Below, piece after piece: positions 1,039 through 27,569 of a stretch of DNA of 40,027 bases. The stretch spans positions 1-40,027 of the forward strand of contig QZJP01000035.1 in the NCBI GenBank assembly GCA_003599345.1, given 5' to 3'. The DNA is from Bacillota bacterium (lineage in GTDB: Bacteria > Bacillota > Sulfobacillia > UBA995 > UBA9673). Under the pieces are notes generated by a model. The model was not told the origin of the DNA, searched no databases, and worked only from the letters and a program-made list of their open reading frames with translations. Within the stretch, counting starts at the first letter, position 1. Each line of letters begins with the position of its first letter. Position numbers and translations under genes: made by a program.

Positions 1039-2001
1039 GTGAGAATCGTAATAACGGACCACCCTTTCCCATCAACGGACATCGAAAGACGCGCCCTGCG
1101 AAAGGTGGGGGCGGAGTTGGTCCTCGGCAACTGCGTCACCGAAGAGGAAGTCCTCAATCTGGTACGGGACGCCGATGGCATTCTTGTCACCTATGCGCCC
1201 ATCACCGAGCGCGTCATCGATAGCCTCGTCAAGTGCCGGATCATTTCGCGCTATGGGATAGGCCTGGACAACATCGACCTTGCGGCGGCCACACGGCGCG
1301 GCATCTTGGTGACCTACGTTCCGGACTACTGCGTGAACGAAGTGTCCGACCACGCGATGGCGCTGCTATTGGCCTGGGCTAGGCGGATAACGCTACTTGA
1401 CCGTGCCGTGCACGATGGCGACTGGGACTTCCGCCCGTTCAGGCCGTTCCCGCGCCTGGCAGGAAAGACACTGGGGCTGCTGGGTTTTGGCAAGATCGGT
1501 CGTGCGGTGGCCGGCAAAGCGGGGGCCTTCAACATGCGGGTCCTTACCCACGACCCGTACGTTACGGAAGATATGGCCCAGCAGCACTGCTGTGAGTTGG
1601 TCCGGTGCCGTGAAGAGCTCTTTTCTGCTTCTGATGTCATCTCAGTCCATATGCCCTTGACACCTGAGACCAGAGGGTCAATAGGGGCACGAGAGCTAAG
1701 CTTGATGAAGGACACTGCCTTTCTAATCAATACTGCTCGGGCTGAGATCATCGATGAAGACGCACTCTACGAAGCCCTGAGGGCCGGGCGGCCAGCGGGG
1801 GCCGGTCTCGACGTCCTGGCCAAGAGAGATCCCGGAAACAAGCTTTACTCGCTCCCCCAGGTCATCCTGACTCCTCACGCCGCGTTCTACTCGGAGGAAT
1901 CGATTCTTGAGTTACAGACCAGGGCGGTTGGCGAGGTTGTGCGGGCGTTCACGGGCGAGCCGCCTCTTTGCCCTGCCAACTCGAGCGCGACCAAACGCTG
2001 A
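1039..2001 (+). CDS. D-isomer-specific 2-hydroxyacid dehydrogenase (phosphoglycerate dehydrogenase/CtBP-like)
   Basis: NAD-binding 'GKTLGLLGFGKIGRAVAGKAGAF', 'SVHMPLTPETRG', 'INTARAEIIDEDAL', 'LTPHAAFYSEES'; GTG start with RBS taaggagg. Confidence 0.92.
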   Translation: MRIVITDHPFPSTDIERRALRKVGAELVLGNCVTEEEVLNLVRDADGILVTYAPITERVIDSLVKCRIISRYGIGLDNIDLAAATRRGILVTYVPDYCVNEVSDHAMALLLAWARRITLLDRAVHDGDWDFRPFRPFPRLAGKTLGLLGFGKIGRAVAGKAGAFNMRVLTHDPYVTEDMAQQHCCELVRCREELFSASDVISVHMPLTPETRGSIGARELSLMKDTAFLINTARAEIIDEDALYEALRAGRPAGAGLDVLAKRDPGNKLYSLPQVILTPHAAFYSEESILELQTRAVGEVVRAFTGEPPLCPANSSATKR

Positions 2002-2024
2002 CGAAACGAGGAGGTAACTGCCGA

Positions 2025-3311
2025 ATGTGTATCGAGCTTGTGGCAGGTCGGCGAATCGACACCAGTTTCATCGGGAGGCCCCACGAGTATCTACCGCGCC
2101 AGCTGTATAGCACGACGGCCACTGACTGGCAGGAGCGGGTCAACTTCGAGCGCCTCCGTAACCAACGGTTACAGAGAGCGAAGCAGATGATCGAGAAGCA
2201 TGACCTGGGCGCCGTTGTCTTGTTCGCCGGTGAGAACTTGCGTTACGTGACCGGGGTCTTCCAAGGCAACTGGAAGAACAACATCTTCATCCGGTACTGT
2301 GTCCTGCCCCGCGGGGGAGAACCGGTCCTCTTCGAGACAGTCGGCTCTGACTTCCACGTCGCCCGCATGGATGCCCCGTGGCTCGAAGGTCGTGTGCGCC
2401 CGGCCATCACCTGGAAGTGGGCCGAGGCCGCCGAGGAGTACATGGCGCGGAACATGGCCGCCTCCGTGATGGAGGTCCTTAAGGAAGCGGGCGTGGAGCA
2501 GGAGCGCATCGGCATCGACATCATGGATATGCGTGCCTACCAGGCTCTGCAGGCGCTCGGTCTCAACATCGTCAACGCTTGGCCGGCGATGTCGGAGGCC
2601 CGCGTTGTCAAGACCCCGGATGAGATTGAATGCCTCAAGATCTCGTCGGCCTACGGTGACGCTGCCATGTGGCGGGTCATCCACGAGTGGGCGAAGCCCG
2701 GGGTGAAGGAATCCTACATCTGCGCCAAGGTCAACGAGTTTCTTTACGAGGAAGGATTTGACTTCGTTTACGACATCATCGTGGCCTCCGGCGGCAACAC
2801 CTCTCCCTACCGGCGTTGGCACACCGACAAGATCCTCCGTCAAGGCGACCTGGTCATCGTCGACATAAACGCCATCGGACCCGGCGGTTACTTCGTCGAC
2901 TTTGTCCGTTGCTTCAAGGTCGCTGGGAGGCCGACCCAGGCCGAAAAGGATCTCTATCGGGAGAGCTATGACTCTCTTCAGGCCGCCCTCCAGGAATTCA
3001 GGCCGGGCGCGACCACGGCCGATGTGGCCAAGAAGTTCCCCGTCTACGACGACGACAAGTACCAGAGCGTCAGCCTCCAGCAGTTCGCTCATAGCATAGG
3101 GCTCTCGCTCTACGAGGGCATGTGGATCTCTCGGGCCTACTCGCTCAAGTACCCGGCTGAGATCAAGCAGAACATGTGCTTCGCCTGCGAGACCTTCGCC
3201 GGCCATCCCGGTCTTCAGCAGACGGCCCGCCTTGAAGAGAACCTCGTGGTCACTGACAACGGGTTCGAGTTGCTCACGAGGTGCCCATTTGAAGAGGACT
3301 TCCTGAGCTAG
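2025..3311 (+). CDS. M24 metallopeptidase-fold protein (Xaa-Pro dipeptidase/creatinase/DddP-like)
   Basis: Pita-bread metal ligand pattern D-D-H-E-E: VDINAIGPGGYFVDF, QFAHSIGL, CFACETFAG, ARLEENLVV; RBS gaggagg before the ATG. Confidence 0.88.
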   Translation: MCIELVAGRRIDTSFIGRPHEYLPRQLYSTTATDWQERVNFERLRNQRLQRAKQMIEKHDLGAVVLFAGENLRYVTGVFQGNWKNNIFIRYCVLPRGGEPVLFETVGSDFHVARMDAPWLEGRVRPAITWKWAEAAEEYMARNMAASVMEVLKEAGVEQERIGIDIMDMRAYQALQALGLNIVNAWPAMSEARVVKTPDEIECLKISSAYGDAAMWRVIHEWAKPGVKESYICAKVNEFLYEEGFDFVYDIIVASGGNTSPYRRWHTDKILRQGDLVIVDINAIGPGGYFVDFVRCFKVAGRPTQAEKDLYRESYDSLQAALQEFRPGATTADVAKKFPVYDDDKYQSVSLQQFAHSIGLSLYEGMWISRAYSLKYPAEIKQNMCFACETFAGHPGLQQTARLEENLVVTDNGFELLTRCPFEEDFLS

Positions 3312-3330
3312 GCTAAGGGGGTGACGTGCG

Positions 3331-5103
3331 TTGACCCCGCCATCGTTAGTGAACGTTGCCTTGGGGAAGGAACCCGCCGACTTGGTTGTGCGGGGCGGGC
3401 GACTCGTAGACGTGCATACGGCCCAAGTCTACGCGGCTGACGTGGCGGTCAAGGGTGAGCGGATTGCCGCGGTCGGTAAGGTCGAGGGCGCGATCGGGGC
3501 TGACACGGAAGTGCTCGATGCCTCCGGCCGCTTCATTTGCCCCGGGTTCATTGACACGCACCAGCATAGTTATGAAGCCCACCTTAACATGACCGAGTAC
3601 GCCAGGGTTCTCCTCGAGCACGGCACGACGACGGTGTCCGAAGCCTTCTACGGCATGGGCTTCGTTTCGGGAGTCAGGGGCGTTCGGGAATCGCTCGATG
3701 AGCTCCGGAGGACTCCCGTGAGGGTCCTCTTCATGGTCCCGATACTTGCGTACCTGCAGAACCGGGAACTTGGCCTGCCCGTCACGCCCTGCTGTCCAAC
3801 GGCGGACGAGCTTATCGAGATGCTTGATTGGCCGGAATGCCGGGGCCTCGAGGAGCCTCCATACATCCCCATCTTAGAGAAGGATCCCTTCTTCCTTGAC
3901 CTGTTCGAACGGACCGTCGCCGGCGGGAAGGTCGTGACCGGGCACGGCTGTGGTCTCTCAGGGCCGGAGCTGCAAGCCTATGCGGCTGCCGGCGCGTCTT
4001 CCGACCATGAGGCCGTGACCGCTGTGGAGGCCCTGGAAAGAGCTCGGCTCGGGATGTGGGTTTCGATGCGGGAGGGTTCCGGGGCCTCAAACGTCAGGCA
4101 GCTCGTGGAGGCCCTCGTTGAAAACAAGGTGGACTCCAGGTCCTTCTGCTTCTGCGGGGACGAGGCGGAGTTCCTTCGCCTTCACCGGCAGGGCCACCTC
4201 GATTACTGCCTGAGGCTAGCCGTGGGGGCGGGTGCCGACCCGGTCAAGGCCGTGCAGGCCGCTACCATTAACGCCGCGTCACTCCTAGGCGTTGACAAGG
4301 ACATCGGTTCTGTCGCGCCCGGGAAACTCGCCGACATGGTTATCGTGGATGATTTGGCGGGCTTCAACGTCTTCGCGGTGATTGCAGCCGGTCGGCCGGT
4401 GTGGCACGACAGACGCATGCTGGCGTCCCTCAGGCGGCCGGACTACGCGGATTGGATGCGCGAAACGGTCAAGGTGAGGCGTGAGCTTACTCTGCAAGAC
4501 TTGCGAATTCCCGCGCCGCCGGGTCGGTCGAGGGTTATGGTTCGGGTCATCGGGGTGACCGATGGGAGCCTGATATCCGACGACCTCCGTATAGAGGTTG
4601 AGGTGAAGTCCGGCGAGATCGGTCAGGATACCTCGCAAGACCTCCTGAAAGCAGCGATGGTGGACCGCTTCGGGCGGTTTGAGGGCGCGGGCCTCGGCCT
4701 GATTCGGGGCTTTGGCCTCAAGCGAGGGGCCGTCGGAACCTCCTACAATGGTCTCTGCCAGAACCTCCTGGTGGTGGGCGCTGACGACCGCGACATGTTG
4801 TTGGCTCTGGAGCGCATGGCCGCTCTGGGCGGCGGCTTCGTAGTCGTCGCCGGGGGAAAAGTGCTGGCCGAGCTGCCGCTGCCCCTCTACGGCCTCCTAA
4901 CGGACCTTTCCCTCGAGGAGGCGACGGCGAGGATGGAGAGCGTGTACCGGGCGATGCGCGGCCTGGGGTGCGGGCTGAGCAAGGGACCGTTGCACACCCT
5001 GGCCTTCACCGGGGTTTGTGGGGAGATCGGACACCTCAAGATCGGACACGCGGGTCTCTTTGACGTAGCCGCCAGGAGGTTCGCCCCGATTGTGATCGAC
5101 TAA
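3331..5103 (+). CDS. adenine deaminase-family amidohydrolase, copy 1
   Basis: CPGFIDTHQH, VTGHGCGLSG, SSDHEAVTAVEALERARLGMWVSMREGS, GSVAPGKLADMVIVDD and the typical Ade C-terminal domain (RGFGLKRGAVGTSYN, LGGGFVVVAGGKVLAELPLPLYGLLTD). Confidence 0.88.
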   Translation: MTPPSLVNVALGKEPADLVVRGGRLVDVHTAQVYAADVAVKGERIAAVGKVEGAIGADTEVLDASGRFICPGFIDTHQHSYEAHLNMTEYARVLLEHGTTTVSEAFYGMGFVSGVRGVRESLDELRRTPVRVLFMVPILAYLQNRELGLPVTPCCPTADELIEMLDWPECRGLEEPPYIPILEKDPFFLDLFERTVAGGKVVTGHGCGLSGPELQAYAAAGASSDHEAVTAVEALERARLGMWVSMREGSGASNVRQLVEALVENKVDSRSFCFCGDEAEFLRLHRQGHLDYCLRLAVGAGADPVKAVQAATINAASLLGVDKDIGSVAPGKLADMVIVDDLAGFNVFAVIAAGRPVWHDRRMLASLRRPDYADWMRETVKVRRELTLQDLRIPAPPGRSRVMVRVIGVTDGSLISDDLRIEVEVKSGEIGQDTSQDLLKAAMVDRFGRFEGAGLGLIRGFGLKRGAVGTSYNGLCQNLLVVGADDRDMLLALERMAALGGGFVVVAGGKVLAELPLPLYGLLTDLSLEEATARMESVYRAMRGLGCGLSKGPLHTLAFTGVCGEIGHLKIGHAGLFDVAARRFAPIVID

Positions 5104-5144
5104 CGGCCCGCCTTCCAGCGGACCTTCCTTGAAGAGGTGGGACC

Positions 5145-6923
5145 ATGCAGCGCTGTGAGTTAGTGGATGTGGCGGCGGGTAGGGTGCCGGCCGACCTCCT
5201 GATTCGCGGGGGGCGCCTTGTGAATGTGCACACCGCCGAGATATACCGGGCAGACGTCACGGTCAAGGGGGATCGAATCGCTGCCGTCGGCGAGGTTGGC
5301 GCCGGAGCCGTTGGCCCAAAGACGGTGCTGGTAGAGGCCGACGGACACTACCTGACCCCGGGACTCATTGAGACCCACCAGCACGTGGCCGGGAGTCACC
5401 TGAGCATGACGGAGTTTGCACGGGTTGTTCTAGCGCACGGGACTACGGCGATGGCCACAGACTTTTACGAGATTGCCGCGGTGGGCGGTGTTAAGGCCGT
5501 CCGCTGGTGTCTGGATGAGCTGCGAGCAACCCCACTGAAGGTGATGTTCGTCATCCCGATGCCTGCGTTCTACCAGAACGAGAAGTTCGGCCACACCGGT
5601 AGCCTGGATTTCAAGGACATGGTCGAGATGCTTCACTGGCCGGAGTGTTACGGGCTAAACGAGGCCTTCGCCTCGAGGGTGCTGGCCGGGGATGCCGAGA
5701 TGTTGGAGCTCGTCCGGCTGACACGGGAGCTAGGGAAAACAGTTGTCGGCCACGCTTCGGAGTTCACCGGGGAACGCTTGCAGGCTTGGCTTGCCGCGGT
5801 AGGGTCCACGAATGACCATGAGTGCATCAGTGCCGAGGAGGCGCTGGAGAAGGCCAGGTTGGGTATCCGCATCCTCCTCCGGGAAGGGTCCGCCGCCTCG
5901 GACGTCGTCCGGGTGTCGCGGGCCATCACGGGTTTAGGGGCCGACCCTCGTATGTTCGCGTTCTGCACGGACGAGGAGGAACCACTGCGCCTAGGCCGGG
6001 TAGGCCACCTCGATGAGAAGATCCGCCTCGCGGTGAGCGCGGGGGTGAACCCGGTAACGGCCGTTCAGATGGCCACCCTGAACGGCGCCGAGACTTACGG
6101 CGTGTCTAGAGAGATGGGTAGCGTTACCCCGGGCAAGTTGGCCGATATCCTTCTAGTCAAGGACCTGCGGACGTTCGAGGTTTCCACGGTCATCGCAAGC
6201 GGGAAGGTCGTCGCTTCGGAGGGCCACTACACTGGAGACCTGCGGCGTCCCACCCATCCTGACTTCGCGCGGGGCACCGTTCGGCTGAAGGCTCCGGCGC
6301 GGCCTTCCGACTTCCGTGTCGCCGCGCCTGACGGGGTAGACCGGGCCAGGGTTAGGGTCATTGTCTGCGTCGACGGCGACCTGGTGACCACTGAAAGGGA
6401 AGCGGTCCTCCCCTGCCGGGATGGTGAAGTCCTAGCCGACGTGCGTCAGGACGTGGCCAAGATAGCTGTGCTTGAACGACATCACGCGTCGGGGAAGATC
6501 GGGGTCGGCTTCATCCACGGTTTTGGGTTGAAGCGGGGAGCCCTCGGGAGCACCTTCAACCCTCACACGGAGGATCTAGCTGTCGTTGGAACCAACGACC
6601 GGGACCTCGCCGTGGCGGCGAACCGCGTGGCTGAACTCGGCGGTGGCTTCGTGGCGGTTGCCGACGGCAAGGTGGTCGGCGAATTGCCGTTGCCCCTGTT
6701 CGGACTCCTATCCGATCTACCAGTCGAAGAGGTCTACCCGAGACTCGACCGGCTCTACGCGAGCGTCCGCGAGCTCGGCTGTCAACTACGGGGTCCGTTT
6801 ACCAGCCTCGGTTTCATGTGCCTACCCACGATTATCGGCAATCTCAAGATCTGTTGCGAGGGCGTCGTTGACGTCTGGAAAGAACAGCTGGTTGACATCG
6901 TGAGTGGGGTGAATGGTAGTTGA
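5145..6923 (+). CDS. adenine deaminase-family amidohydrolase, copy 2
   Basis: ETHQH, VVGHASEFTG, TNDHECISAEEALEKARLGIRILLREGS, GSVTPGKLADILLVKD, IHGFGLKRGALGSTFNPH, LGGGFVAVADGKVVGELPLPLFGLLSD. Confidence 0.88.
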   Translation: MQRCELVDVAAGRVPADLLIRGGRLVNVHTAEIYRADVTVKGDRIAAVGEVGAGAVGPKTVLVEADGHYLTPGLIETHQHVAGSHLSMTEFARVVLAHGTTAMATDFYEIAAVGGVKAVRWCLDELRATPLKVMFVIPMPAFYQNEKFGHTGSLDFKDMVEMLHWPECYGLNEAFASRVLAGDAEMLELVRLTRELGKTVVGHASEFTGERLQAWLAAVGSTNDHECISAEEALEKARLGIRILLREGSAASDVVRVSRAITGLGADPRMFAFCTDEEEPLRLGRVGHLDEKIRLAVSAGVNPVTAVQMATLNGAETYGVSREMGSVTPGKLADILLVKDLRTFEVSTVIASGKVVASEGHYTGDLRRPTHPDFARGTVRLKAPARPSDFRVAAPDGVDRARVRVIVCVDGDLVTTEREAVLPCRDGEVLADVRQDVAKIAVLERHHASGKIGVGFIHGFGLKRGALGSTFNPHTEDLAVVGTNDRDLAVAANRVAELGGGFVAVADGKVVGELPLPLFGLLSDLPVEEVYPRLDRLYASVRELGCQLRGPFTSLGFMCLPTIIGNLKICCEGVVDVWKEQLVDIVSGVNGS

Positions 6924-7273
6924 ACCAGGCTTCCGTCGTCTTCGTCTCGGACATGCCCGCCACCTGTCCGCCTTTGCACCACGGGGTGGAACTCAGGGAG
7001 TTCTTCCGTCAGACGGGCCGTCTGGCATTTGCTGTAGTCCGCATGGATGCAGGGGGCTACGCCGAGGCTCATGCCCATCCCGGGTCGAGTCACGTGATCT
7101 ACCTGCTGGAGGGACGGCTCGAGGTCACCTTGGGGGACGCCCGGCCGGTGACCCTAGAACCTGGGGGTGCGGTGCTCATCCCGGAAGGACTTGCGCACGC
7201 GACGAGGACCACCGGAGACGTGACCTGCGCTTACGTCATCGTCACTGCGCCGCCTGCGGCTGAGGAGGACTAG
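6920..7273 (+). CDS. small cupin-domain protein
   Basis: EAHAHPGSSHVIYLLEGRLEVTLGDARPVTLEPGGAVLIPEGLAHA: both cupin motifs; start overlaps the upstream stop. Confidence 0.88.
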   Translation: MNQASVVFVSDMPATCPPLHHGVELREFFRQTGRLAFAVVRMDAGGYAEAHAHPGSSHVIYLLEGRLEVTLGDARPVTLEPGGAVLIPEGLAHATRTTGDVTCAYVIVTAPPAAEED

Positions 7274-7276
7274 ACG

Positions 7277-7561
7277 TTGCGCGTCAGCGTGTCCGGCATA
7301 CCGGCCGGGCTGGTCCGGAGCGTGGTAATGGACCTGCCGGACGGCGCGACTGTGGGAGACCTCGTCGAGAGGCTCCTTCGCGAGGACCTGAGTCGCGACG
7401 GGATGTCAAGCGCCCAGGGCCCGGACCTGCCCGACGGTCGGGGCCCAGGTCAGTCTGTGATCTTCGTCAACGGGCGGAACATCGGGTCCCTGGCCGGGGT
7501 GAAGACGCGGCTCGGCGAGGGCGACAAGGTCTTATTCGTCATCCCGGCCGCCGGGGGTTGA
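7277..7561 (+). CDS. MoaD/ThiS-family sulfur-carrier protein
   Basis: Short beta-grasp-type protein ending in GG (…GDKVLFVIPAAGG); same operon as AOR. Confidence 0.8.
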   Translation: MRVSVSGIPAGLVRSVVMDLPDGATVGDLVERLLREDLSRDGMSSAQGPDLPDGRGPGQSVIFVNGRNIGSLAGVKTRLGEGDKVLFVIPAAGG

Positions 7562-7583
7562 GACAAAGAAAGGGGCGGTTGCC

Positions 7584-8603
7584 GTGCGAGCGATGGTCCT
7601 GAGAGAGTACGGGTCGCCACTTGCGCTCGAGGAGCGTCCGGTGCCCGAGCCCGGCCCTGGTGAGGCTGTCATCCGGGTTAGGGCCTGTGGCCTCTGCGGC
7701 ACGGACCTTAAGATTGCGGCCGGTAAGCTCCCCGGCACGAGGGTACCTGTCACCATGGGCCACGAGCCGGCGGGTGAGGTGGTTGCCGTCGGTTCCGGAG
7801 TGCGAAACGTCACCGTGGGCGACCACGTTCTGGCCCACTTCTACGTGACTTGCGGCCTGTGCGAGTACTGCCGCACCGACCGCGAGAGTATCTGCCGGAA
7901 TCTCCTGGGTCGAGTGGGGTTCGAGATTGACGGCGGCTACGCCGACTACTTGCGGCTCCCGGCCACAAGCTTCCTGCGGTTGGCTCCCGGCATCGGCTTT
8001 GAAGAGGGCGCTATCCTGGGCGACGCCGTCGGGACGGCCTTCCACGCTCTCTACAGACGAGGCCATCTTCGCCCTGGGGAGACGGTCCTTGTGATGGGAG
8101 TTGGCGGAGTGGGTCTCCACGTCGTCCAGGTCGCCCGCGCCCTCGGCGCGCGGACCGTGGCGGTCGACCTGTCGCCGGCGAAGCTGGAGCTCGCTTGCGC
8201 CCACGGCGCCGACCACGCCCTCCGGTACGGCGGCCACTACGTGGAGCAGGTCAGGGACGCGCTGGGCGGGGAGGGGCCTCACCTCATCGTGGAGACCGTT
8301 GGGCGACCCGAGACGGTCGAGGCCAACCTTCGGGTGCTCCGACCGGGAGGGCGTCTGGTGATTGTGGGCTACCTTCCGGGGAGCACGTTCCGTGTGGATC
8401 CCCTGGCGGCCTTGCTCGACGAGGTCTCCGTGGTGGGCTCGCGAGCCTGCACCAAGGACGACCTGGGCTCCGTGATGAGCCTGGTCTCACGAGGCGCCGT
8501 GAAACCCGTAATCACCCGCCGGTTCCCACTCGAACAGGTGAACGAAGCTTTCTCCGAACTTGCGGCCGACAGGATACTGGGGCGGGCGGTGGTCGTTCCA
8601 TGA
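7584..8603 (+). CDS. zinc-dependent alcohol dehydrogenase (MDR family)
   Basis: GLCGTDLKIAAGK, GHEPAGEVVAVGSGV, structural-zinc cysteines CGLCEYCRTDRESIC, VMGVGGVGLHVVQVA. Confidence 0.92.
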   Translation: MRAMVLREYGSPLALEERPVPEPGPGEAVIRVRACGLCGTDLKIAAGKLPGTRVPVTMGHEPAGEVVAVGSGVRNVTVGDHVLAHFYVTCGLCEYCRTDRESICRNLLGRVGFEIDGGYADYLRLPATSFLRLAPGIGFEEGAILGDAVGTAFHALYRRGHLRPGETVLVMGVGGVGLHVVQVARALGARTVAVDLSPAKLELACAHGADHALRYGGHYVEQVRDALGGEGPHLIVETVGRPETVEANLRVLRPGGRLVIVGYLPGSTFRVDPLAALLDEVSVVGSRACTKDDLGSVMSLVSRGAVKPVITRRFPLEQVNEAFSELAADRILGRAVVVP

Positions 8604-9394
8604 ATGTTCCGACTACTGGCGCCCCTCTCGCGGCTAGTGATCTCTTCTCGGTAAAGGGCAAGGTCGTGGCTATCACCGGGGCGGCCCAGGGAGTGGGACG
8701 TGACCTTTCGCTCGGGTTTGCCCGGGCCGGTGCGAGGGTAGTCGCTATCGACCTTCAGGCCGAGCCCCTGAAGGACCTGTCCGACGAGATCGTCCGGCTC
8801 GGCTCCGAGGCGCTCTCCTTCGCCCTGGACCTCAGGAACGTGGCCTCGGTCAACGAGTGCTTCCAAGAGGTGTTGAAGCGGTGGGGGGGCCTGGACGTCC
8901 TGTGCAACAACGCGGGGGTCAACGTGCACAAGGACTCCACGGACCTCACCGAGGACGAGTGGGACTTCGTCCTGGACGTCAACCTCAAGGCCTTGTTTTT
9001 CTGCTGCCAGGCGGCTGCGCGCGTGATGGCGCCGGCACGCGAGGGGAGGATCATCAACACCGCGTCGACGTTTGGAATCGTCGGGTTTCCCCAGCGGGCA
9101 GCCTATTGCGCCAGCAAGGGCGGGGTCGTCCAGCTCACGCGGGCCCTCGCCCTCGAATGGGCGCCCCTCGGCATAAGGGTGAACGCCGTGGCTCCGGCCG
9201 CGGTGTGGACTCCGTCGCGGGCCGAGCTCTTTTCGAACGAGGATTTCATGCGCAGCCTCCTTGCCAAGCTTCCCCTGGGCCGGCTGGCCCGGACCAGCGA
9301 CGTTCTTGCGGCAACCATCTTCCTGGCGAGTCCAGCGTCGGAGTTCGTGACCGGCCAGGTCATCGTGGTCGACGGCGGCTGGACGGCGGCCTAG
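8600..9394 (+). CDS. SDR-family oxidoreductase
   Basis: AITGAAQGVGRDLSLGFARAG, LCNNAGVN, INTASTFGIVGFPQRAAYCASKGGV, C-terminal VTGQVIVVDGGWT; ATGA overlap with the upstream gene. Confidence 0.93.
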   Translation: MNVPTTGAPLAASDLFSVKGKVVAITGAAQGVGRDLSLGFARAGARVVAIDLQAEPLKDLSDEIVRLGSEALSFALDLRNVASVNECFQEVLKRWGGLDVLCNNAGVNVHKDSTDLTEDEWDFVLDVNLKALFFCCQAAARVMAPAREGRIINTASTFGIVGFPQRAAYCASKGGVVQLTRALALEWAPLGIRVNAVAPAAVWTPSRAELFSNEDFMRSLLAKLPLGRLARTSDVLAATIFLASPASEFVTGQVIVVDGGWTAA

Positions 9395-9409
9395 CGAGGT
9401 GATGGACTG

Positions 9410-11628: not shown

Positions 11629-11672
11629 CCGAGACGACCGCGACCTTTGAGAAAGGGAGGACTGAACACGAC

Positions 11673-13125: not shown

Positions 13126-13145
13126 GTGAAAGGCGGATGTGATTG

Positions 13146-17951: not shown

Positions 17952-17953
17952 TT

Positions 17954-19132: not shown

Positions 19133-19175
19133 CGCGGGGCCTGGCCGGCGCGAACGCTGCCGGACGGGCCCCGCG
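19133..19175 (+). other. GC-only intergenic hairpin
   Basis: cgcggggcc (19133-19141) pairs exactly with ggccccgcg (19167-19175). Confidence 0.7.
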
Positions 19176-19190: not shown

Positions 19191-20954
19191 GTGAACCGCG
19201 TGGCGCTGAGAAGGGCGGCCCTGGGACGTGAATCGGCAGACCTGGTCATCAAGGGAGGTCGCCTGGTAAACGTTCTGACCGGCGAGGTATACCAGGCCGA
19301 TGTCGCCGTGAAGGACGGCTTCATCGCGGCCGTCGGAGACGTCGTCGCCGGTGCTGGGGGCAGCCCGACGGTGATCGACGCCTGCGGGCGCTACGTGCTG
19401 CCGGGCTTCATAGACCAGCACGTTCATACCTACGAGAGTCAGCTCAATGTGACCGAGTACGCGGCTGCGGTCCTGGTCAACGGCACAACGGCCATCTGCA
19501 CCGACTTCTACGGCGAGTCTACAGTAGGCGGGAAGACTGCGGTGCGGCACTCCCTGGACGCCGCGGCCGGAACTCCCCTGAAGATTCTCTTCGTTCTCGG
19601 CGTTCCCGGGTACTACCAGAACGAACCGTTCGGTCACTCAGGGACGCCGACAATGGACGACATGTTTGAAATGCTGGGTTGGCCCGAGTGCGTCGGCCTG
19701 AACGACACCTTCGCCTCGAAGCTGGTCGGTGAGGACACCCGCCTCCTGGAACTCGTCGAACTGGCCCAGTCGCGCGGAAAGAAGATATGCGGCCACGGCT
19801 CCGAGATAGAGGGGGCCGCTCTGAACGCCTGGGTTGCCACCGTCCCGAACACGGACGATCACGAGTGCGTCAGCGCGGTCGAGGCGGTGGAGAAGGCCAG
19901 GCGGGGCGTGTGGGTATCCATGAGACAGGGGTCCGGCTGTCCCAACGTCCCCGAACTCGTCAGAGCCATTACCGAGTTGGGCGCGGATCCGCGACGGTTC
20001 ACCTTCAATACCGATCTGGTGTCAGCTCACGACCTCGTTGAGAAGGGTGGCATCGACCACGCCCTTCGCACGGCCGTCCGGCATGGTCTGAGACCGGTGA
20101 CCGCCATTCAGATCGCGACGCTGAACGCGGCCGAGTGTTTGGGAGTCAGTCACCGGATGGGAAGTGTGTCTCCCGGCAAGGAGGCTGACATTGTTCTGGT
20201 CGACGACCTCGTGGAGCTCAGACCGCGTCTTGTCGTCGCCCGCGGCAGGGTCGTCGCCAGGGACGGCGAGTTCGTCGGAGAGATCCCGTCCCTTGCCTAC
20301 CCGTCCGAGGCGAGAGACACCATCCGGGTCGCTCTCCCGCTCGGCCCCGACGATTTCCGCCTGGAGGTGGGGGGCGGGGACCGGGAGGACTCGGCTCGGG
20401 TCATCGGCGCCAGCGGAGACAGCCTGATAACGGAGGAAATACGCGAGACAGTGCGGGTAAGGGACGGGCTCGTTACGGCCGACCCCGCACGGGATCTCCT
20501 CAAGATCGCGGCTCTGGAGCGGCACAACCGCTCGGGCGAGATCGGGAAGGGACTTATCCGAGGGTTCGGGCTGAAAGCCGGGGCCATAGCGAGCACCTAT
20601 AATCCACAGCAACAGAACCTCCAGGTGGTTGGGACCAACGACGCGGACATGGCTGCCGCAGCCAATGAGCTGGTCCGAATCGGCGGGGGGATGGTCGCCG
20701 TCCGAGACGGTAAGGTCTTGGCTTGCCTCGGATTGCCACTCTATGGTCTCCTCTCGGACAAGCCGGCAAAGGTGGTAGCTCGCGACTACGACCGACTCCT
20801 GTCGGTCGTCCGCGATCTCGGTTGCTCCCTGCCGGCTCCCTTCCATACCCTGGCGTTTGTCGGCCTGCCCATAACCATCGGAAAACTCAAGATCAGCCCC
20901 CGTGGCCTGGTAGACGTCTGGCAGGAGAAAGCGGTTGGGCTGCTTGCGGAGTGA
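19191..20954 (+). CDS. adenine deaminase-family amidohydrolase, copy 3
   Basis: LPGFIDQHVHTYESQLNVTEYA, ICGHGSEIEGAALNAW, TDDHECVSAVEAVEKARRGVWVSMRQGS, GSVSPGKEADIVLVDD, IRGFGLKAGAIASTYNPQ. Confidence 0.87.
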   Translation: MNRVALRRAALGRESADLVIKGGRLVNVLTGEVYQADVAVKDGFIAAVGDVVAGAGGSPTVIDACGRYVLPGFIDQHVHTYESQLNVTEYAAAVLVNGTTAICTDFYGESTVGGKTAVRHSLDAAAGTPLKILFVLGVPGYYQNEPFGHSGTPTMDDMFEMLGWPECVGLNDTFASKLVGEDTRLLELVELAQSRGKKICGHGSEIEGAALNAWVATVPNTDDHECVSAVEAVEKARRGVWVSMRQGSGCPNVPELVRAITELGADPRRFTFNTDLVSAHDLVEKGGIDHALRTAVRHGLRPVTAIQIATLNAAECLGVSHRMGSVSPGKEADIVLVDDLVELRPRLVVARGRVVARDGEFVGEIPSLAYPSEARDTIRVALPLGPDDFRLEVGGGDREDSARVIGASGDSLITEEIRETVRVRDGLVTADPARDLLKIAALERHNRSGEIGKGLIRGFGLKAGAIASTYNPQQQNLQVVGTNDADMAAAANELVRIGGGMVAVRDGKVLACLGLPLYGLLSDKPAKVVARDYDRLLSVVRDLGCSLPAPFHTLAFVGLPITIGKLKISPRGLVDVWQEKAVGLLAE

Positions 20955-20972
20955 GAGGAACGTGAGGCATTC

Positions 20973-22127
20973 TTGACACCCAAGGTGGTCCGCATCGCCC
21001 TCATCGGGGCTGGGTGGATGGGCCAGATACACAGCGAGACTTATTGCCGTCTCTACACCAGGACTACCGATAGTGGGGTTCGTCCTGAGCTACGCTGGGT
21101 GGTTGACGTGGACGAGCCCCGTGCACGCCGGTTGCTGGAGACCTACGGCTACGCCCGCATGGGCGCGAAGTGGGAGAAGGTGATAGCCAGAGAGGACGTG
21201 GACGTGGTCGACGTGTGCGTCCACAACTCCCTCCACCGGGACATCGTGCTGGCCGCGGCGAGGGCCGGCAAGCACTTGCTCTGCGAGAAGCCCTTGGCTA
21301 CGTCTGTCCAGGCGGCCGAGGAGATGGTGCGGGCGGTGGAGGAAGCAGAGGTGGTCCACATGATCAACTTCAACTACCGAAGGGTCCCTGCCATCGCCTA
21401 TGCCCGCCAGCTGCTTGGGGAGGGAGCGCTCGGCGAGGTCTACCAGATGCGCGTGCTGTTCGCCCAGGACTTCGCGGCGAGCCCCGATCTTCCCGTGAGT
21501 TGGCGTTTCCGGCCCGACCTCGCCGGCGGAGGCAGCCTGGTGACGATGGGATCCCATGCGATCGACCTCATGAGGTGGTTCATGGGAGATGTCAGTAGGC
21601 TTGTCTCGATGACCAGCACCCTGGTGCCTGAGCGCCCCCTGACGGGTGACGACGGCCGTGTCGTCCCTGGTCGCCGGGCCAAGGTTGCTGTTGATGACGT
21701 CACTTCAGTCATAGTCAGGTTCGCGAGCGGAGCTGCGGGGACCCTCGAGACCACCTGGCTCGCCCACGGCCGGAAACACCATCTCGAGTTCGAGGTCTAC
21801 GGCAGCCGGGGTGCCCTCCGGTTCAACAGCGAGCGACTCAACGAGCTCATGTTCTGTGACGGCTCTTCTCCGGCGGAACTCAGGGGCTTCAGAACCATCC
21901 TCGTCGGAGAGCCCCATCCCTACGGGACCCAGTTCGGGCTCAAGACGGGCATGGGGATAGGCATCAAGGAGACCTTCCTTCTCCAGCTCCAGGACCTGCT
22001 TGCCGGGGTGGCATCCGGTACCAAAGTGACCCCGGACTTCCGGGATGGCCTCGAGGTGGACCGCTTCATCGCCGCCGCCTTTGACTCCGCTGGCCTTGGG
22101 CGGTGGGTGGAACTGCACACTGGCTAG
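20973..22127 (+). CDS. Gfo/Idh/MocA-family oxidoreductase
   Basis: IALIGAGWMGQIHSETY, LLCEKPLATSVQAAEEM, NFNYRRVPAIAYARQL. Confidence 0.93.
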   Translation: MTPKVVRIALIGAGWMGQIHSETYCRLYTRTTDSGVRPELRWVVDVDEPRARRLLETYGYARMGAKWEKVIAREDVDVVDVCVHNSLHRDIVLAAARAGKHLLCEKPLATSVQAAEEMVRAVEEAEVVHMINFNYRRVPAIAYARQLLGEGALGEVYQMRVLFAQDFAASPDLPVSWRFRPDLAGGGSLVTMGSHAIDLMRWFMGDVSRLVSMTSTLVPERPLTGDDGRVVPGRRAKVAVDDVTSVIVRFASGAAGTLETTWLAHGRKHHLEFEVYGSRGALRFNSERLNELMFCDGSSPAELRGFRTILVGEPHPYGTQFGLKTGMGIGIKETFLLQLQDLLAGVASGTKVTPDFRDGLEVDRFIAAAFDSAGLGRWVELHTG

Positions 22128-22166
22128 AGGGTGACCAGGAGAAAGACAACCTGAGGAGGTACAGCG

Positions 22167-23045
22167 TTGGACAAGCTCATCATTACAATAACAGTTGACT
22201 CCACGATGTCGTATCCAAGAAACCCGTACTGCCCACCGACCGAAGAAGTGGACAAGGTGGCCAAGGAGTATATCGAGGCCGTTAAGGCGGGTGCCAGCAT
22301 CGTGCACCTCCACGGCGTGCACAAGCTCGAAGCTACGTTCGGCGCCGATGGCCGCAAGCTCAGTCATGTTGATTTCGACGGTTGGAAACGGCTCAAGGAG
22401 AAGATCCAGGAGAAAGTCAACCCGGTAATCCAATACGGCATAGCCAGCGCGCGGTTCGAAGAGAAGGTCAAGCTAATGGAGCACAAGCCCGATCTCATGT
22501 CGATCTGCTTCGGACCGCACGACGAGGACTTCCAGCCGGATCCGGACTATCCGGCCCAGGAGATCTACGCCGTTCATCCCAGGGATGAGCTCGCAGGCTA
22601 CTCCAGGGAAGCGATGAACCACGGCGTCAAAGTGGAAGTGGAGTCGTTCACTCCCGGGTCGTTCTACAACATCCGCCACGTGTCCAAGAAGGGTCTCTTG
22701 CCCGAGCCCATTTGGACGACCCTCTTCCTCGGGTGGCCGGGCGGGACCTGGATGCCACCGACATCGAAGGGCCTGATCTTCTTCGTCGATTGTCTCCCTA
22801 AGGAATACAAGATCAACTGGAACACCAGTGTCATGGATCCTCTGGCCCAGTGGCCAGTTCTGACTGAGGCCATAATGCTCGGTGGACACGTTCGAGTCGG
22901 CTGGGAGGACAACCCCTACCTGAGCCCGGGAACGTATGCCAAGACCAACGCTGAGCTAGTCGATAAGATCGTGCGGATCGCGACGGAACTCGGCCGTGAC
23001 ATCGCGACTCCCGACGAAGCCCGGAAGATCGTTTTCGGCAAGTAG
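22167..23045 (+). CDS. beta-keto acid cleavage enzyme family (BKACE/DUF849)
   Basis: AGASIVHLHGVH, VNPVIQYGIASARFEEK, AIMLGGHVRVGWEDNPYLSPGTYAKTNAELVDKIVRIATELGRDIATPDEARKI. Confidence 0.9.
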   Translation: MDKLIITITVDSTMSYPRNPYCPPTEEVDKVAKEYIEAVKAGASIVHLHGVHKLEATFGADGRKLSHVDFDGWKRLKEKIQEKVNPVIQYGIASARFEEKVKLMEHKPDLMSICFGPHDEDFQPDPDYPAQEIYAVHPRDELAGYSREAMNHGVKVEVESFTPGSFYNIRHVSKKGLLPEPIWTTLFLGWPGGTWMPPTSKGLIFFVDCLPKEYKINWNTSVMDPLAQWPVLTEAIMLGGHVRVGWEDNPYLSPGTYAKTNAELVDKIVRIATELGRDIATPDEARKIVFGK

Positions 23046-23101
23046 ACTCGCGAACGCCCAGCCGGGACACCGAGAACACGCTCCGACAGTGGAGCCGGAC
23101 G

Positions 23102-23147
23102 GGCCGGGGAGGGGGAAGCCACCCTCCCCGGCCGGCCGGGGAAGGGG
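23102..23147 (+). repeat. three-arm GC-rich palindromic element (REP-like) upstream of the acyl-CoA synthetase gene
   Basis: Arm 1 ggccggggaggg (23102-23113), arm 2 ccctccccggcc (23122-23133) exact complement, arm 3 ggccggggaagggg (23134-23147); 23125-23142 is a perfect 18-nt palindrome. Confidence 0.85.
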
Positions 23148-23154
23148 TTTGAGA

Positions 23155-25194
23155 GTGCACGAACGGTATGGTTTCACAAGCCCGCGGAGCGCGGTAGCCA
23201 GGAATGAGGTTGAAGCCACCAAGCTAGCGGCTTCGATGAGGTTGCCGGTCGCCCTCAAGGTGGTCTCCCCGGACATCCTCCACAAGTCTGACGTGGGAGG
23301 TGTGCTGCTGGGCCTCTCGTCCGAGCAGGAGGTCCGAACGGGTTTCAGGACCATCGTGGACACGGTCGCCCACCGCGCCCCCGAGGCCACGATTGAAGGC
23401 GTCATGATCCAGGAGATGGCCCCCAGGGGCGTCGAGATCATCATCGGCCTGCTGAACGACCCGGCTTTCGGGCCCGTGGTCATGTTCGGGCTAGGAGGCG
23501 TGTGGACCGAGGTTCTCCGGGACGTCTCGTTCCGCTTGGTGCCTCTTAGCAGGGAGGATGCCCTGGCCATGATCCGCGAGATCAGGGGGGCGCCCATCCT
23601 TTCCGGCTACCGGGACTCGCCAGCCGTGGACGAGGACGCCCTTGTCTCCCTGCTGCTGAACGCGAGCAGGATGGCCCAGGATCTGGGAGACCGGCTCGAG
23701 GCCGTGGACTTCAACCCAATCGTGGTACGGGGCAAGGAACACTGGGTCGTTGACACGAGAGTCATCCTTCGGGAGGAAGGGGATCGACCGAGGGCGGCAA
23801 GCTGTCGCGTAGGCGCGGACCCCTCTCAACTAGAGCGGTTCTTCGAGGCCGGGTCGGTCGCCGTCGTTGGGGCGTCCGCCACCCCGGGGAAGATCGGTTT
23901 CATCGTCCTCGACGGGCTTGTGAACCACGACTACCGGGGCAAGGTCTATCCTGTGAACCCCTCGCGTTCGGAGATACTCGGCCTGGCGTGCTATCCTTCG
24001 ATTAGAGCTCTCCCGGAGCCGCCGGAGTTGGTCGTCGTCACCATTCCCCTGGCCGGTGTGGAGGGGATTATCGAAGAGTGCTCCGAGCGCGGCGTCCGCG
24101 CTGTGGTGGTGATATCAGGCGGGGGCAAGGAACTCGGAGGTGACAGTCTAGCCGTCGAGACCCGTATCAGGGAAAAAGCCCGGTCTCTCGGAGTGCGGGT
24201 CGTCGGCTGCAACTGCATCGGCGTGTTCGATGGCCGTTCCCGGCTGGATACGTTCTTCCACACGACCGAGCGGTTGACTCGTCCGGAATACGGCCCGGTG
24301 TCGATGATCACTCAGTCCGGCACGGTGGGTTGCGCGTTTCTCGAAGCCATGGTGGGAACGGGCGTTAGTCGATTTGTGAGCTACGGGAACCGAATCGATG
24401 TTGACGAGGCCGATCTTCTCGCCTTTCTCGCCCGGGACCCTTCCACCAAGGTCATCGTCGCGTACGTGGAAGGCTTCGAGCGAGGACGGGACTTCTTCGA
24501 GGCCGCGAAGGAGACGGTGAACCACAAGCCCGTTCTCATCTACAAGGCCGGACGGACCGACAGGAGCGGCCTGGCCTCCCTGTCTCATACCGGGTTCCTT
24601 GGGGGTGCCTACGCTGTCGCTCGCGGGGCCTTCGAGCAGTGCGGGGTAATCGCCACCGACAGCCTGGAGGATCTCATCGCGGGGGCCAAGGCCCTGAGCC
24701 GGCTGCCGCGCGCCGCCGGGAACCGGGTGGCTACCATTTCGAACGGCGCCGGGACGGTGGTCCAGGCCATGGACCTCCTCGACGAGTTCGGTCTGGAGGC
24801 GGCAACCCTGTCGGATGAGTCTGTGACCCGGTTGACGGCGGGCTACCCCCCGTTCTACCTGATTGGAAACCCCGTCGACGTGACCGGCTCCGGCACTGCC
24901 TCCGATTACGATGCTGGCGTAAGGGCCCTAGTGGACGATCCCGGTGTTGACATCGTCATGTCGTGGTTCGTCTTCCAGGACACCCCGCTCGAGGAGACGA
25001 TCGTCGAGGTTCTCGCCGAGTTGTCCCGGTGGTCGCCGAAGCCCATCATCTGCGGAGCCGCTGGGGGAGCGTACACCGACAAGATGGCCCGGGCCCTTGA
25101 GGAGGCGGGAGTTCCGGTCTTCCGCACAGTTCGCGCGTGGGTCATGGCCGCCAGGGCCGTTCTGCCCGGCCCGGACACAAAGCACCTAGATTAG
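23155..25194 (+). CDS. acyl-CoA synthetase (ADP-forming), ATP-grasp module followed by CoA-binding/ligase modules
   Basis: ATP-grasp_5 motif VALKVVSPDILHKSDVGGVLLG then CoA-binding AVVGASATPGKIGF…VYPVNPSRSEILG, ITQSGTVG, SHTGFLGG; GTG start after ggaagggg. Confidence 0.88.
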   Translation: MHERYGFTSPRSAVARNEVEATKLAASMRLPVALKVVSPDILHKSDVGGVLLGLSSEQEVRTGFRTIVDTVAHRAPEATIEGVMIQEMAPRGVEIIIGLLNDPAFGPVVMFGLGGVWTEVLRDVSFRLVPLSREDALAMIREIRGAPILSGYRDSPAVDEDALVSLLLNASRMAQDLGDRLEAVDFNPIVVRGKEHWVVDTRVILREEGDRPRAASCRVGADPSQLERFFEAGSVAVVGASATPGKIGFIVLDGLVNHDYRGKVYPVNPSRSEILGLACYPSIRALPEPPELVVVTIPLAGVEGIIEECSERGVRAVVVISGGGKELGGDSLAVETRIREKARSLGVRVVGCNCIGVFDGRSRLDTFFHTTERLTRPEYGPVSMITQSGTVGCAFLEAMVGTGVSRFVSYGNRIDVDEADLLAFLARDPSTKVIVAYVEGFERGRDFFEAAKETVNHKPVLIYKAGRTDRSGLASLSHTGFLGGAYAVARGAFEQCGVIATDSLEDLIAGAKALSRLPRAAGNRVATISNGAGTVVQAMDLLDEFGLEAATLSDESVTRLTAGYPPFYLIGNPVDVTGSGTASDYDAGVRALVDDPGVDIVMSWFVFQDTPLEETIVEVLAELSRWSPKPIICGAAGGAYTDKMARALEEAGVPVFRTVRAWVMAARAVLPGPDTKHLD

Positions 25195-25207
25195 AGGAGG
25201 TTGCCCG

Positions 25208-26431
25208 ATGAAGGAACCCTGGCACACCGACAAGTGGTTCACGAGTCCGTGGAACTTCGTCCCGGAGGTCGTGAAGGAGAACTGCTTCGCCCGTAAAGTC
25301 CAGTTGCACGACATCACCCTTCGAGACGGTGAGCAGCAAGCCGGTTTGGTGTTGCGGGCCGAGGATAAGGTGGCCATCGCTGAGAAGCTGGCCGAGGCCG
25401 GAGTGGACCGAATCGAAGCGGGCATGCCCGCCGTATCCCGGGACGACGAGAAGGCCATCCGGGAGATTGTCAAGCGCAAGCTGGGTCCGAAGATCTTCGC
25501 CTTCGCCCGGTGCATGGTCGAGGACGTCAAGCGCGCCAAGGACTGCGGCGTGGACGGGATCGTCATTGAAATACCCAGCAGCGAACACATCATCCGCAAC
25601 GCCTACGGCTGGCCGCCCGAGAAGGCGGTCGACCTCTCAATCAAGGCGACTCAGGCGGCCAAGGAGGCCGGCCTTTTCACGGCTTTCTTCACGATCGACG
25701 CTTCGCGGGCCGACCTCGACTGGCTCCTGAGCCTCATCGGGCGCGTGGCCGACGAGGGACACATGGACGCCGTGACCCTCGTGGACACGATGGGCGCATG
25801 CTCGCCCGCGGCCATCCGCTACTTCGTCCGCAGGGTCCGCCAGCGTTTCCCGGAAGCGCAACTAGAGGCTCACTTTCATGACGATTTCGGCCTGGCCACG
25901 GCGAACACGTTGGAGGCGCTGGCCCTCGGCGTTCAAGTGGCCCACGTCTCGGTGTGCGGCATCGGCGAGAGGGCCGGAGGAGCGGCCCTCGAGGACGTGG
26001 TCGTAGCCCTCAAGACCCTCTACGGAGTCGAGACGGCGGTCAAGACGGAGAAGCTGTACGAGCTATGCCAGGTCGTCCTCGACCGCACTGGGCACCCGAT
26101 TCCGCCCAACAAGTCCGTGGCCGGAAGAGCCCTCTTCGATGTGGAGTCAGGCATACCAGCCACGTGGCTGAGGCGCTGTGGAGAGAAGCTGCTCACGGAG
26201 GTCTTCCCGCTCCACCCGGACCTCATCGGTCAGTCGCAACCGAGAATCGTGCTGGGGAAAGGATGCGGCGACGAATCGGTCCGGCAGTGGCTCGAGGATA
26301 TGGGGGCTCAGGCGACGCCGGAGCAGGTGAGCCGGCTCACCGCTCTCGTCAAGGACTTCTCACTCGCCAAGAAAGATCTCCTGACCCGCCGCGAGTTCGC
26401 AACGCTGGTCCGTTGGGTGCTGGAGGACTAG
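25208..26431 (+). CDS. HMGL/isopropylmalate-homocitrate synthase family (pyruvate carboxyltransferase domain)
   Basis: VQLHDITLRDGEQQAGLVL, GVDRIEAGMPAVS, AHFHDDFGLATANTLEAL, SVCGIGERAGGAALEDV. Confidence 0.9.
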   Translation: MKEPWHTDKWFTSPWNFVPEVVKENCFARKVQLHDITLRDGEQQAGLVLRAEDKVAIAEKLAEAGVDRIEAGMPAVSRDDEKAIREIVKRKLGPKIFAFARCMVEDVKRAKDCGVDGIVIEIPSSEHIIRNAYGWPPEKAVDLSIKATQAAKEAGLFTAFFTIDASRADLDWLLSLIGRVADEGHMDAVTLVDTMGACSPAAIRYFVRRVRQRFPEAQLEAHFHDDFGLATANTLEALALGVQVAHVSVCGIGERAGGAALEDVVVALKTLYGVETAVKTEKLYELCQVVLDRTGHPIPPNKSVAGRALFDVESGIPATWLRRCGEKLLTEVFPLHPDLIGQSQPRIVLGKGCGDESVRQWLEDMGAQATPEQVSRLTALVKDFSLAKKDLLTRREFATLVRWVLED

Positions 26432-26432
26432 C

Positions 26433-27569
26433 GTGAACCGGCGGCTAGGGATTGCAGTGATCGGAGCCGGCTGGATGGGCCGCGTGCATAGCGAGGCCTA
26501 CCGGCGCCTCGCTGGCCTTCTCCCGTTGCCGGGGGTCGACGTGGAGCTGCGGTGGGTCGTGGACCGGGAACCGCATCTCTGCCGTGACCTCGCCGAGCGG
26601 TACGGGTTCGGTCGCTTCACGACTGATTGGACCGAGCCGCTCCGCGACCCAGAAGTGAGCGTGCTCGACGTCTGCCTGCCCAACGCCTACCATCGAGAGG
26701 CGGTGCTGGGCGCAGTTTCCGAGCGCAAGCACGTCCTGTGCGAGAAACCGTTGGGGAAGGATCCCCGCGAGTCCGAAGAGATGTACAGAGCAGCGCAGGA
26801 AGCCGGCATCTGCCATCAGACGGCCTTCAACTACCGCCGGGTTCCCGCTCTGGCCTTCGCCAGGGAACTGATTGCCGGCGGTGAACTAGGCGAGCTCCGC
26901 GAGTTCCGGGGGCAGTTCCTTCAGGACTTCGCCGCTGATCCCGGCGTGCCGGCCTCCTGGCGCTTCGCGAGTTCGGTAGCGGGGGCCGGAAGCCTTGCCA
27001 CTCTAGGATCCCACCTTCTTGACCTGACCCGGTGGCTGATGGGCGAGGTCACCGCGATAGCCGGAGCTAGTCAGACCTTCATCGCGGAACGCCCGGTGGA
27101 GGACGGGCGCCCGGTACGCGTGGATGTGGATGACACATCGTGCCTGGTGGCACGTTTCGCGGGACGCGCCATAGGCCTCCTGCAGACAAGCTGGGTCGCC
27201 CACGGTCGACGGTGTCAACTAGAGGTGGAAGTCCACGGCAGCCGGGGCTCGCTCGTCTTCAGCCTCGAGCGGATGAATGAGCTGCAGTTCTGTGAAGGCG
27301 ACGGCCCCTCGACCCGGAAGGGCTTCCGGACCATCCACGTGGGGCAGTCGCATCCGTACGGCGGGGTCTTCGAGCTCAAGACCGGCATGAACCTGGGTTG
27401 GCGGGACACCTTCGTCCTACAAGCCCACGAGTTCCTCAAGGCCGTGCTGGAAGGCCGTCCGGCGACGCCCTCCTTCTACGACGGGTGGCAGGTAGATCGG
27501 CTCATCGCCGTAGCCGCGGAGGCGGGACGTGGGGACGGCTGGGTGAGCGTACCCCCCGTGCCGACATAA
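26433..27569 (+). CDS. Gfo/Idh/MocA-family oxidoreductase, second copy
   Basis: IAVIGAGWMGRVHSEAYRRL, VLCEKPLGKDPRESEEM, FNYRRVPALAFARELI; clear paralogue of 20973-22127. Confidence 0.93.
   Translation: MNRRLGIAVIGAGWMGRVHSEAYRRLAGLLPLPGVDVELRWVVDREPHLCRDLAERYGFGRFTTDWTEPLRDPEVSVLDVCLPNAYHREAVLGAVSERKHVLCEKPLGKDPRESEEMYRAAQEAGICHQTAFNYRRVPALAFARELIAGGELGELREFRGQFLQDFAADPGVPASWRFASSVAGAGSLATLGSHLLDLTRWLMGEVTAIAGASQTFIAERPVEDGRPVRVDVDDTSCLVARFAGRAIGLLQTSWVAHGRRCQLEVEVHGSRGSLVFSLERMNELQFCEGDGPSTRKGFRTIHVGQSHPYGGVFELKTGMNLGWRDTFVLQAHEFLKAVLEGRPATPSFYDGWQVDRLIAVAAEAGRGDGWVSVPPVPT

Follow-up and report, generated by a model that had tools for sequence, protein, structure and literature searches.

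We have analysed contig QZJP01000035.1 of the Bacillota metagenome-assembled genome (MAG) GCA_003599345.1 (2.32 Mb, 82% complete); the window is this entire contig of 40,027 nucleotides. Between positions 1039 and 27569 it carries 23 consecutive plus-strand genes, every one of which was assigned to a family by open reading frame (ORF) calling, translation and scans with Pfam and NCBIfam. An earlier sequence-only reading had described this segment as a large same-strand catabolic island with its own importer. That description is borne out and the families it listed are correct, although it counted about 22 genes and omitted the short-chain dehydrogenase at 8600-9394. Other genomes have most of these genes together as well, and the run is thus more than a product of chance. 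The island is nevertheless not a single unit but is made up of at least four recurrent modules that can be separated. We think it probable that it serves the import and breakdown of a small nitrogen-containing molecule in a modular fashion, and it was probably assembled horizontally. Its genes and the regulator preceding them are as follows; some start codons in the island were assigned by hand.

175-933, plus: GntR/FCD transcriptional regulator, the likely island regulator, just upstream of the 23-gene run (Pfam FCD, GntR)
1039-2001, plus: DHDH, D-2-hydroxyacid dehydrogenase, core module (Pfam 2-Hacid_dh, 2-Hacid_dh_C; 46-57% orthologs in M24a loci)
2025-3311, plus: M24a, DddP-related M24-fold metalloenzyme, core module (Pfam M24; 61-84% orthologs; five metal ligands)
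3331-5103, plus: AdeA, Ade-like amidohydrolase (Amidohydro_1, Adenine_deam_C; below the adenine deaminase cut-off; subclade A)
5145-6923, plus: AdeB, Ade-like amidohydrolase (Pfam; below the adenine deaminase cut-off; tree; 64-68% orthologs in genomes G370 and G018)
6920-7273, plus: cupA, small cupin with a TTG start and a 4-bp overlap with AdeB (Pfam Cupin_2; a 41% relative adjoins AdeB in G370)
7277-7561, plus: MoaD/ThiS-like protein, likely cofactor partner of AOR (Pfam ThiS; NCBIfam moaD_arch below cut-off)
7584-8603, plus: MDRa, zinc-type medium-chain dehydrogenase (Pfam ADH_N, ADH_zinc_N; 62-63% in G370 and G006)
8600-9394, plus: SDR, short-chain dehydrogenase (Pfam adh_short_C2; 50% in G370)
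9410-11245, plus: AOR, aldehyde:ferredoxin oxidoreductase (Pfam AFOR_N, AFOR_C)
11242-11628, plus: ferredoxin-type 4Fe-4S protein (Fd), likely electron carrier of AOR (Pfam Fer4 families)
11625-12692, plus: AH2, amidohydrolase of the type of 2-amino-3-carboxymuconate semialdehyde decarboxylase (ACMSD), likely a decarboxylase; its GTG start overlaps the ferredoxin stop (Pfam Amidohydro_2)
12685-13125, plus: cupB, cupin (Pfam Cupin_2)
13143-14366, plus: M24b, second M24-fold protein (Pfam M24; 58% in G370, same order)
14382-15455, plus: MDRb, zinc-type dehydrogenase (Pfam; 46-60% beside M24a in loci L056, L057, L070 and L071)
15437-16987, plus: RbsA-type ATPase of a CUT2 importer; TTG start with a Shine-Dalgarno-like sequence (Pfam ABC_tran)
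16977-17951, plus: RbsC-type permease (Pfam BPD_transp_2)
18074-19105, plus: RbsB-type substrate-binding protein (Pfam Peripla_BP_4)
19191-20954, plus: AdeC, Ade-like amidohydrolase (Pfam; below the adenine deaminase cut-off; subclade C with the protein of locus L033)
20985-22127, plus: GfoA, Gfo/Idh/MocA dehydrogenase related to levoglucosan dehydrogenase (NCBIfam LevoglcsnDh; PDB 6a3f)
22167-23045, plus: BKACE, beta-keto acid cleavage enzyme (Pfam BKACE, 170 bits)
23155-25194, plus: ADP-forming acyl-CoA synthetase (Pfam ATP-grasp_5, Succ_CoA_lig, CoA_binding_2)
25208-26431, plus: HMGL-like enzyme of isopropylmalate/homocitrate-synthase type, core module (Pfam HMGL-like; signature invariant in 12 orthologs)
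26433-27569, plus: GfoB, second Gfo/Idh/MocA dehydrogenase, 49% identical to GfoA (Pfam)

The sequence-only reading had proposed a comparison of gene neighbourhoods, and the island withstood it. In G370, which belongs to the same phylum and another class, a single contig holds 16 of the 23 genes in some 23 kb. Their identities to the window proteins are 58% (AdeA), 64% (AdeB), 41% (cupA), 47% (GfoA), 53% (DHDH), 52% (HMGL), 78% (M24a), 62% (MDRa), 50% (SDR), 54% (AOR), 38% (ferredoxin), 44% (AH2), 58% (M24b), 53-56% (RbsA), 67% (RbsC) and 70-72% (RbsB). Nine genes keep the order of the window, MDRa-SDR-AOR-Fd-AH2-M24b-RbsA-RbsC-RbsB; the block is broken by a transposon-like region and a nitroreductase, and Pfam gave no match for a small ORF located where MoaD would be. 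Upstream of AdeA, G370 has a second CUT2 importer (L075 8327-16650) accompanied by RidA-like and PucR-like genes, as judged by reading. Two M24b-like fragments, perhaps a decayed copy, lie between its cupA and GfoA genes (L069 15487-15761). Among 399 sampled genomes of the phylum, both the binding protein RbsB (E up to 1e-65) and AdeA/AdeB-type proteins, as distinct from ordinary Ade at 40-44%, were found only in the window genome and G370. A third carrier of AdeA/AdeB, G018, was found among relatives in the class. One of its contigs ends in GntR-DHDH-HMGL-M24a-AdeA, and another carries AdeA, a DUF362-like protein (so called by resemblance to a protein of L071), AdeB and a CUT2 importer whose binding protein shares 52% identity with the one of the second importer of G370.

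A different subset occurs in an Oscillospiraceae MAG (G537), where locus L033 reads GfoA-GntR-SDR-BKACE-RbsA-RbsC-RbsB-AdeC. An Amidohydro_2 protein follows and, from reading of the translations, a permease, a 2-keto-3-deoxy-6-phosphogluconate (KDPG)-aldolase-like protein and a 2-keto-3-deoxygluconate (KDG)-kinase-like protein. M24a was not found in this MAG, and AdeC-type proteins are rare in its order (1/345). The earlier view of one combined unit therefore does not hold: AdeC, GfoA and BKACE occur here without the M24a core, and AdeA, AdeB and AOR occur in G370 without AdeC or BKACE. We distinguish a DHDH/HMGL/M24a core, an AdeA-AdeB module, an AOR/importer module and an importer-AdeC-Gfo-BKACE module. 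Gene content, family membership, retained metal and cluster ligands, module structure and recurrence are all directly established.

The island is tightly packed, with a coding density of about 98%, several 4-bp overlaps and gaps that range from -19 bp to 122 bp, the longest. Three gaps exceed 80 bp (17951/18074, 19105/19191 and 23045/23155), and G+C-rich hairpins lacking a T run occur in the RbsB/AdeC gap (19133-19175) and in the gap between BKACE and the acyl-CoA synthetase (23095-23140). Both hairpins sit at or near module borders. Promoter- and terminator-like matches within the island showed no clear excess over shuffled sequence, so that they neither support nor contradict an operon structure. 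The G+C content of the island is 64%, versus 67% downstream. A 48% relative of the GntR/FCD regulator heads the core in G018, and others are present in L056, L057, L060 and L062.

About a dozen other genomes have the core triad or a part of it. Searches for M24a found it in 10 of 154 genomes of the class and 6 of 399 of the phylum (the sets overlap); its aligned orthologs share 61-84% identity with the window protein (the G006 and G077 copies 83-84%), and DHDH and HMGL orthologs adjoin M24a in most loci. On a plasmid of the haloarchaeon Haloarcula sp. JP-L23, M24a (60.5%) and DHDH (45%) lie with a xanthine dehydrogenase (XDH)-type hydroxylase, a cyclase, a histidinol dehydrogenase homolog and an amidohydrolase. 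HMGL was not found at this locus, nor was a close relative of it on plasmids at E 1e-60, and viral contigs scanned for M24a gave no relative. Elsewhere M24a is found near genes for allantoinase/hydantoinase-like proteins, a biuret-hydrolase-like isochorismatase, a carbamoyl-amidase-like nitrilase, DUF1989 and purine-type XDH. Altogether, an XDH-type or C-N hydrolase gene is present at 12 of 14 M24a loci versus 1 of 20 control windows drawn from four of the same genomes (Fisher p ~2e-6); two of the loci, L070 and L071, come from one genus, and L036 and L069 count through Ade. This enrichment supports, without proving it, a core acting after hydrolysis of an N-ring or amide. GlcD/GlcE- and GlcF-like sequence downstream of M24a in L059 (by reading) fits oxidation of a 2-hydroxy acid and makes glycolate or glyoxylate a plausible product of the core. 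At L072 (13460-15232) two adjacent DUF1989-like proteins, the second alone confirmed as such, lie near the core and a nitrilase. On pSymA of S. meliloti (L130 8878-10862) an M24 protein 30% identical to M24a adjoins an isochorismatase and a glycine-betaine-type ABC importer.

The metal ligands of M24a (D280, D292, H356, E389 and E404, by alignment to DddP, 4s01) are invariant in 16 orthologs. A dimethylsulfoniopropionate (DMSP) lyase was ruled out by a score of 114.9 bits versus a cut-off of 600 for the NCBIfam DddP model NF043017. On the models of the ectoine hydrolase DoeA, M24a and M24b reach at best 58.6 and 97.1 bits versus a cut-off of 575-613. In the HMGL-like enzyme the signature residues L38 R39 D40 G41 E42 Q43 (LRDGEQ), H222 and H224 (HxH) and G253 E254 R255 A256 G257 (GERAG) are invariant in 12 orthologs, and the best solved relative is the homocitrate synthase 6ktq. 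The protein falls below the equivalog cut-offs of LEU1_arch (301 bits; cut-off 484.75) and nifV (290; 462.9). The sequence-only reading had included C-C cleavage among the steps of the pathway; for this enzyme the synthase signature makes condensation of acetyl-CoA with a 2-oxo acid the likelier reaction.

AdeA, AdeB and AdeC share 45-51% pairwise identity. A maximum-likelihood tree of 44 proteins groups them with the proteins of G018, G370 and L033 in a single clade (100/100), apart from ordinary Ade. The clade is divided into subclades A (100/100), B (99/92) and C (100/100), all of which include a member from another genome; a recent tandem duplication was rejected on this ground. Against the adenine deaminase model TIGR01178 (cut-off 472.5) they score 337.7, 408.2 and 360.2 bits, respectively. 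The residues H78, H80, H203, H225 and D276 (AdeB alignment numbering) are common to all three, and the bridging position is E, E and D; by analogy with the family these are taken as the metal ligands. Of the 161 columns that do not vary among 29 ordinary Ade proteins, 99 differ in one or more of the island trio, and the ESSM, MDPHE..AN, EM.NFPGV and DD.HP segments of ordinary Ade are replaced, differently in each subclade. True adenine deaminases were rejected on score, motifs and tree, and the trio is best read as three hydrolases with putatively new, distinct substrates.

In AOR, which has both the AFOR_N and AFOR_C domains, the cluster cysteines Cys289/292/296 and Cys490 are shared with the G370 copy. 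The best solved relative of AH2 is ACMSD (182 bits). GfoA reaches 348.6 bits on the LevoglcsnDh model NF052479, short of its cut-off of 650, and 293 bits to 6a3f. BKACE is well above the Pfam cut-off (170 versus 24.8 bits) and below that of the Kce equivalog (142 versus 382). The tandem RbsA, RbsC and RbsB family proteins identify a CUT2 ribose-type importer. RbsB is nearest to the ribose-type protein 2ioy; at the positions taken, against 2ioy, as ribose contacts of E. coli RbsB, D89, R141 and D215 are kept, and R90, N190 and Q235 are replaced by V, G and C. As several of these positions differ, plain ribose is perhaps a less likely ligand.

The logic of the sequence-only reading (import, C-N hydrolysis, redox steps, acid formation by AOR, then BKACE and acyl-CoA synthetase) fits the families found; we infer each reaction, the order of reactions and the substrate from family membership. 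An N-containing molecule would be taken up through the CUT2 importer by means of its specific binding protein. Its hydroxyl groups would be oxidised by GfoA/B, MDRa/b and SDR, and the three Ade-derived amidohydrolases, each with its own specificity, would open a ring or cleave an amide C-N bond. M24a and M24b may cut further C-N (or C-X) bonds, as in creatinase, ectoine hydrolase or DddP. AOR would convert an aldehyde to an acid with reduction of ferredoxin, and the ACMSD-like AH2 would decarboxylate an intermediate. Carbon might leave by two exits: in the core, DHDH would oxidise a D-2-hydroxy acid to a 2-oxo acid for condensation with acetyl-CoA by the HMGL-type enzyme, and elsewhere BKACE and the ADP-forming acyl-CoA synthetase would turn a beta-keto acid into acyl-CoA and ATP. 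As to the substrate, which the sequence-only reading had pictured as a sugar- or nucleoside-like, N-containing molecule, the context gives hints on both counts: the XDH-type hydroxylases and ureide/amide hydrolases with which the genes are associated favour an N-containing compound, and the presence of a CUT2 importer and of Gfo proteins favours one that is sugar- or cyclitol-like. Our best guess is a compound resembling a cyclic polyol, a cyclitol or a nucleoside, with its nitrogen in an amide, lactam or ureide.

Several observations weigh against this scheme. In the G370 island no counterpart was found for BKACE, the acyl-CoA synthetase, AdeC, cupB, MDRb or GfoB, and these may serve another substrate; the two long, hairpin-bearing gaps may divide the island into transcription units; the enrichment test at the M24a loci is partly circular, its seeds coming in part from the same loci; and searches of this MAG found neither MoaA nor MoaC, both of them required for an active AOR. 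MoaC is present in 10 of 11 relatives tested, G370 included, so that incompleteness of the MAG is the likely reason for the last point. The first two bear on the idea that two pathways lie side by side, the core, AdeA/AdeB and AOR/importer genes acting on an N-containing substrate and AdeC, GfoA, BKACE and the acyl-CoA synthetase on a sugar- or cyclitol-like one. The Oscillospiraceae locus, with AdeC, GfoA, BKACE, SDR and an importer beside KDG-kinase-like and KDPG-aldolase-like genes and no M24a core, speaks for this division, as do G370, which carries the remainder without AdeC and BKACE, and the hairpins at the RbsB/AdeC and BKACE/acyl-CoA synthetase gaps. However, GfoA accompanies both modules, G370 and L033 each have a binding protein of the window kind (70% and 40% identical), and in the window the HMGL of the core sits downstream of BKACE and the acyl-CoA synthetase. 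We regard two pathways as unlikely, though deserving of serious consideration.

Other explanations fare worse. Catabolism of inositol or another cyclitol of the Thermotoga type, which uses IolG, IolM and IolN, would make the Ade-like proteins ring hydrolases. GfoA does resemble cyclitol and anhydrosugar dehydrogenases, MDRa scores on the scyllo-inosose 3-dehydrogenase model, and L033 ends in KDPG-aldolase-like and KDG-kinase-like genes (by reading); the scores, however, are far from the cut-offs (MDRa 188 versus 450 bits; GfoA 129 versus 355 for inositol 2-dehydrogenase), and the route would not account for M24, HMGL, AH2, AOR or the XDH/hydantoinase genes that adjoin the core, which makes it improbable. 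Salvage of purines, or of adenine or adenosine, by true adenine deaminases is suggested by the Ade-like sequences and their Adenine_deam_C domain. We judge it very improbable, as all three proteins (338, 408 and 360 bits) lie below 472.5 in a separate clade, with segments invariant in 29 ordinary Ade replaced, and the ordinary route has no need of AOR, BKACE or HMGL. An anaerobic xanthine route would proceed by ring opening, ureidoimidazole hydrolysis, decarboxylation, aminoimidazole deamination and imidazolone hydrolysis. Its enzymes would be three amidohydrolases, a ureidohydrolase and a decarboxylase; it was set aside because it gives no role to Gfo, AOR, HMGL and BKACE and because the island showed no gene of formiminotransferase type. 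That modules vary between genomes might suggest a chance run of unrelated same-strand genes, an idea to which we give almost no credence: the 16 genes, nine of them colinear, in a genome of another class refute it for the greater part of the island. A modular import-and-breakdown island for a small N-containing molecule remains the best explanation.

Downstream of the island, the plus strand carries genes for a serpin, an M28-type peptidase (membrane segments by eye) and an amidase (28424-33444). The minus strand (34482-39514) encodes two proteins of note: one is a fusion of a hexapeptide acyltransferase with a Gfo-type domain, and the other combines two GT2 domains with numerous TPR repeats.

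All families in the island are known, and literature searches for their combination returned nothing relevant and no matching pathway. Of interest are a conserved catabolic core and three new Ade subclades, built from these known families. We suggest tentatively that M24a, DHDH and HMGL form the common lower part of an undescribed N-heterocycle or ureide degradation route in this phylum and, in part, in haloarchaea, that M24a carries out a C-N (or C-X) cleavage new to M24 enzymes and that AdeA, AdeB and AdeC have three new specificities; this is possible, if somewhat short of an even chance. M24a is labelled a peptidase where its family is annotated, although its neighbours are catabolic. Good targets are this M24 family, the binding protein, seen only in such islands, and the three amidohydrolases, with their intact metal sites and altered pockets; one substrate solved would help to re-annotate about a dozen related loci together.

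Each of the better-understood relatives shares part of its character with the island proteins. ACMSD is closest to AH2 among solved structures, but AH2 has no NCBIfam match and no kynurenine pathway genes were recognised in the island. Levoglucosan dehydrogenase (6a3f), the nearest relative of GfoA, differs in that GfoA misses the cut-off of its model and no levoglucosan pathway partners were recognised. The isopropylmalate and homocitrate synthases have LRDGEQ, HxH and GERAG in common with the HMGL-like enzyme, which differs in its catabolic setting and in scoring under the equivalog cut-offs. The relationship of M24a to the DMSP lyase DddP (4s01) extends through most of the protein, with all five M24 metal ligands retained, but M24a is set in loci of N-heterocycle/ureide type with other partner genes. 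Finally, the adenine deaminase family (TIGR01178; Atu4426-type, PDB 3nqb) shares with the island trio a two-domain amidohydrolase architecture and the HxH, bridging Glu/Asp, two His and Asp, AdeB being 40-44% identical to the nearest ordinary Ade of relatives; the trio differs in lying under the curated cut-off and in replacing metal-site-flanking segments that ordinary Ade holds invariant.

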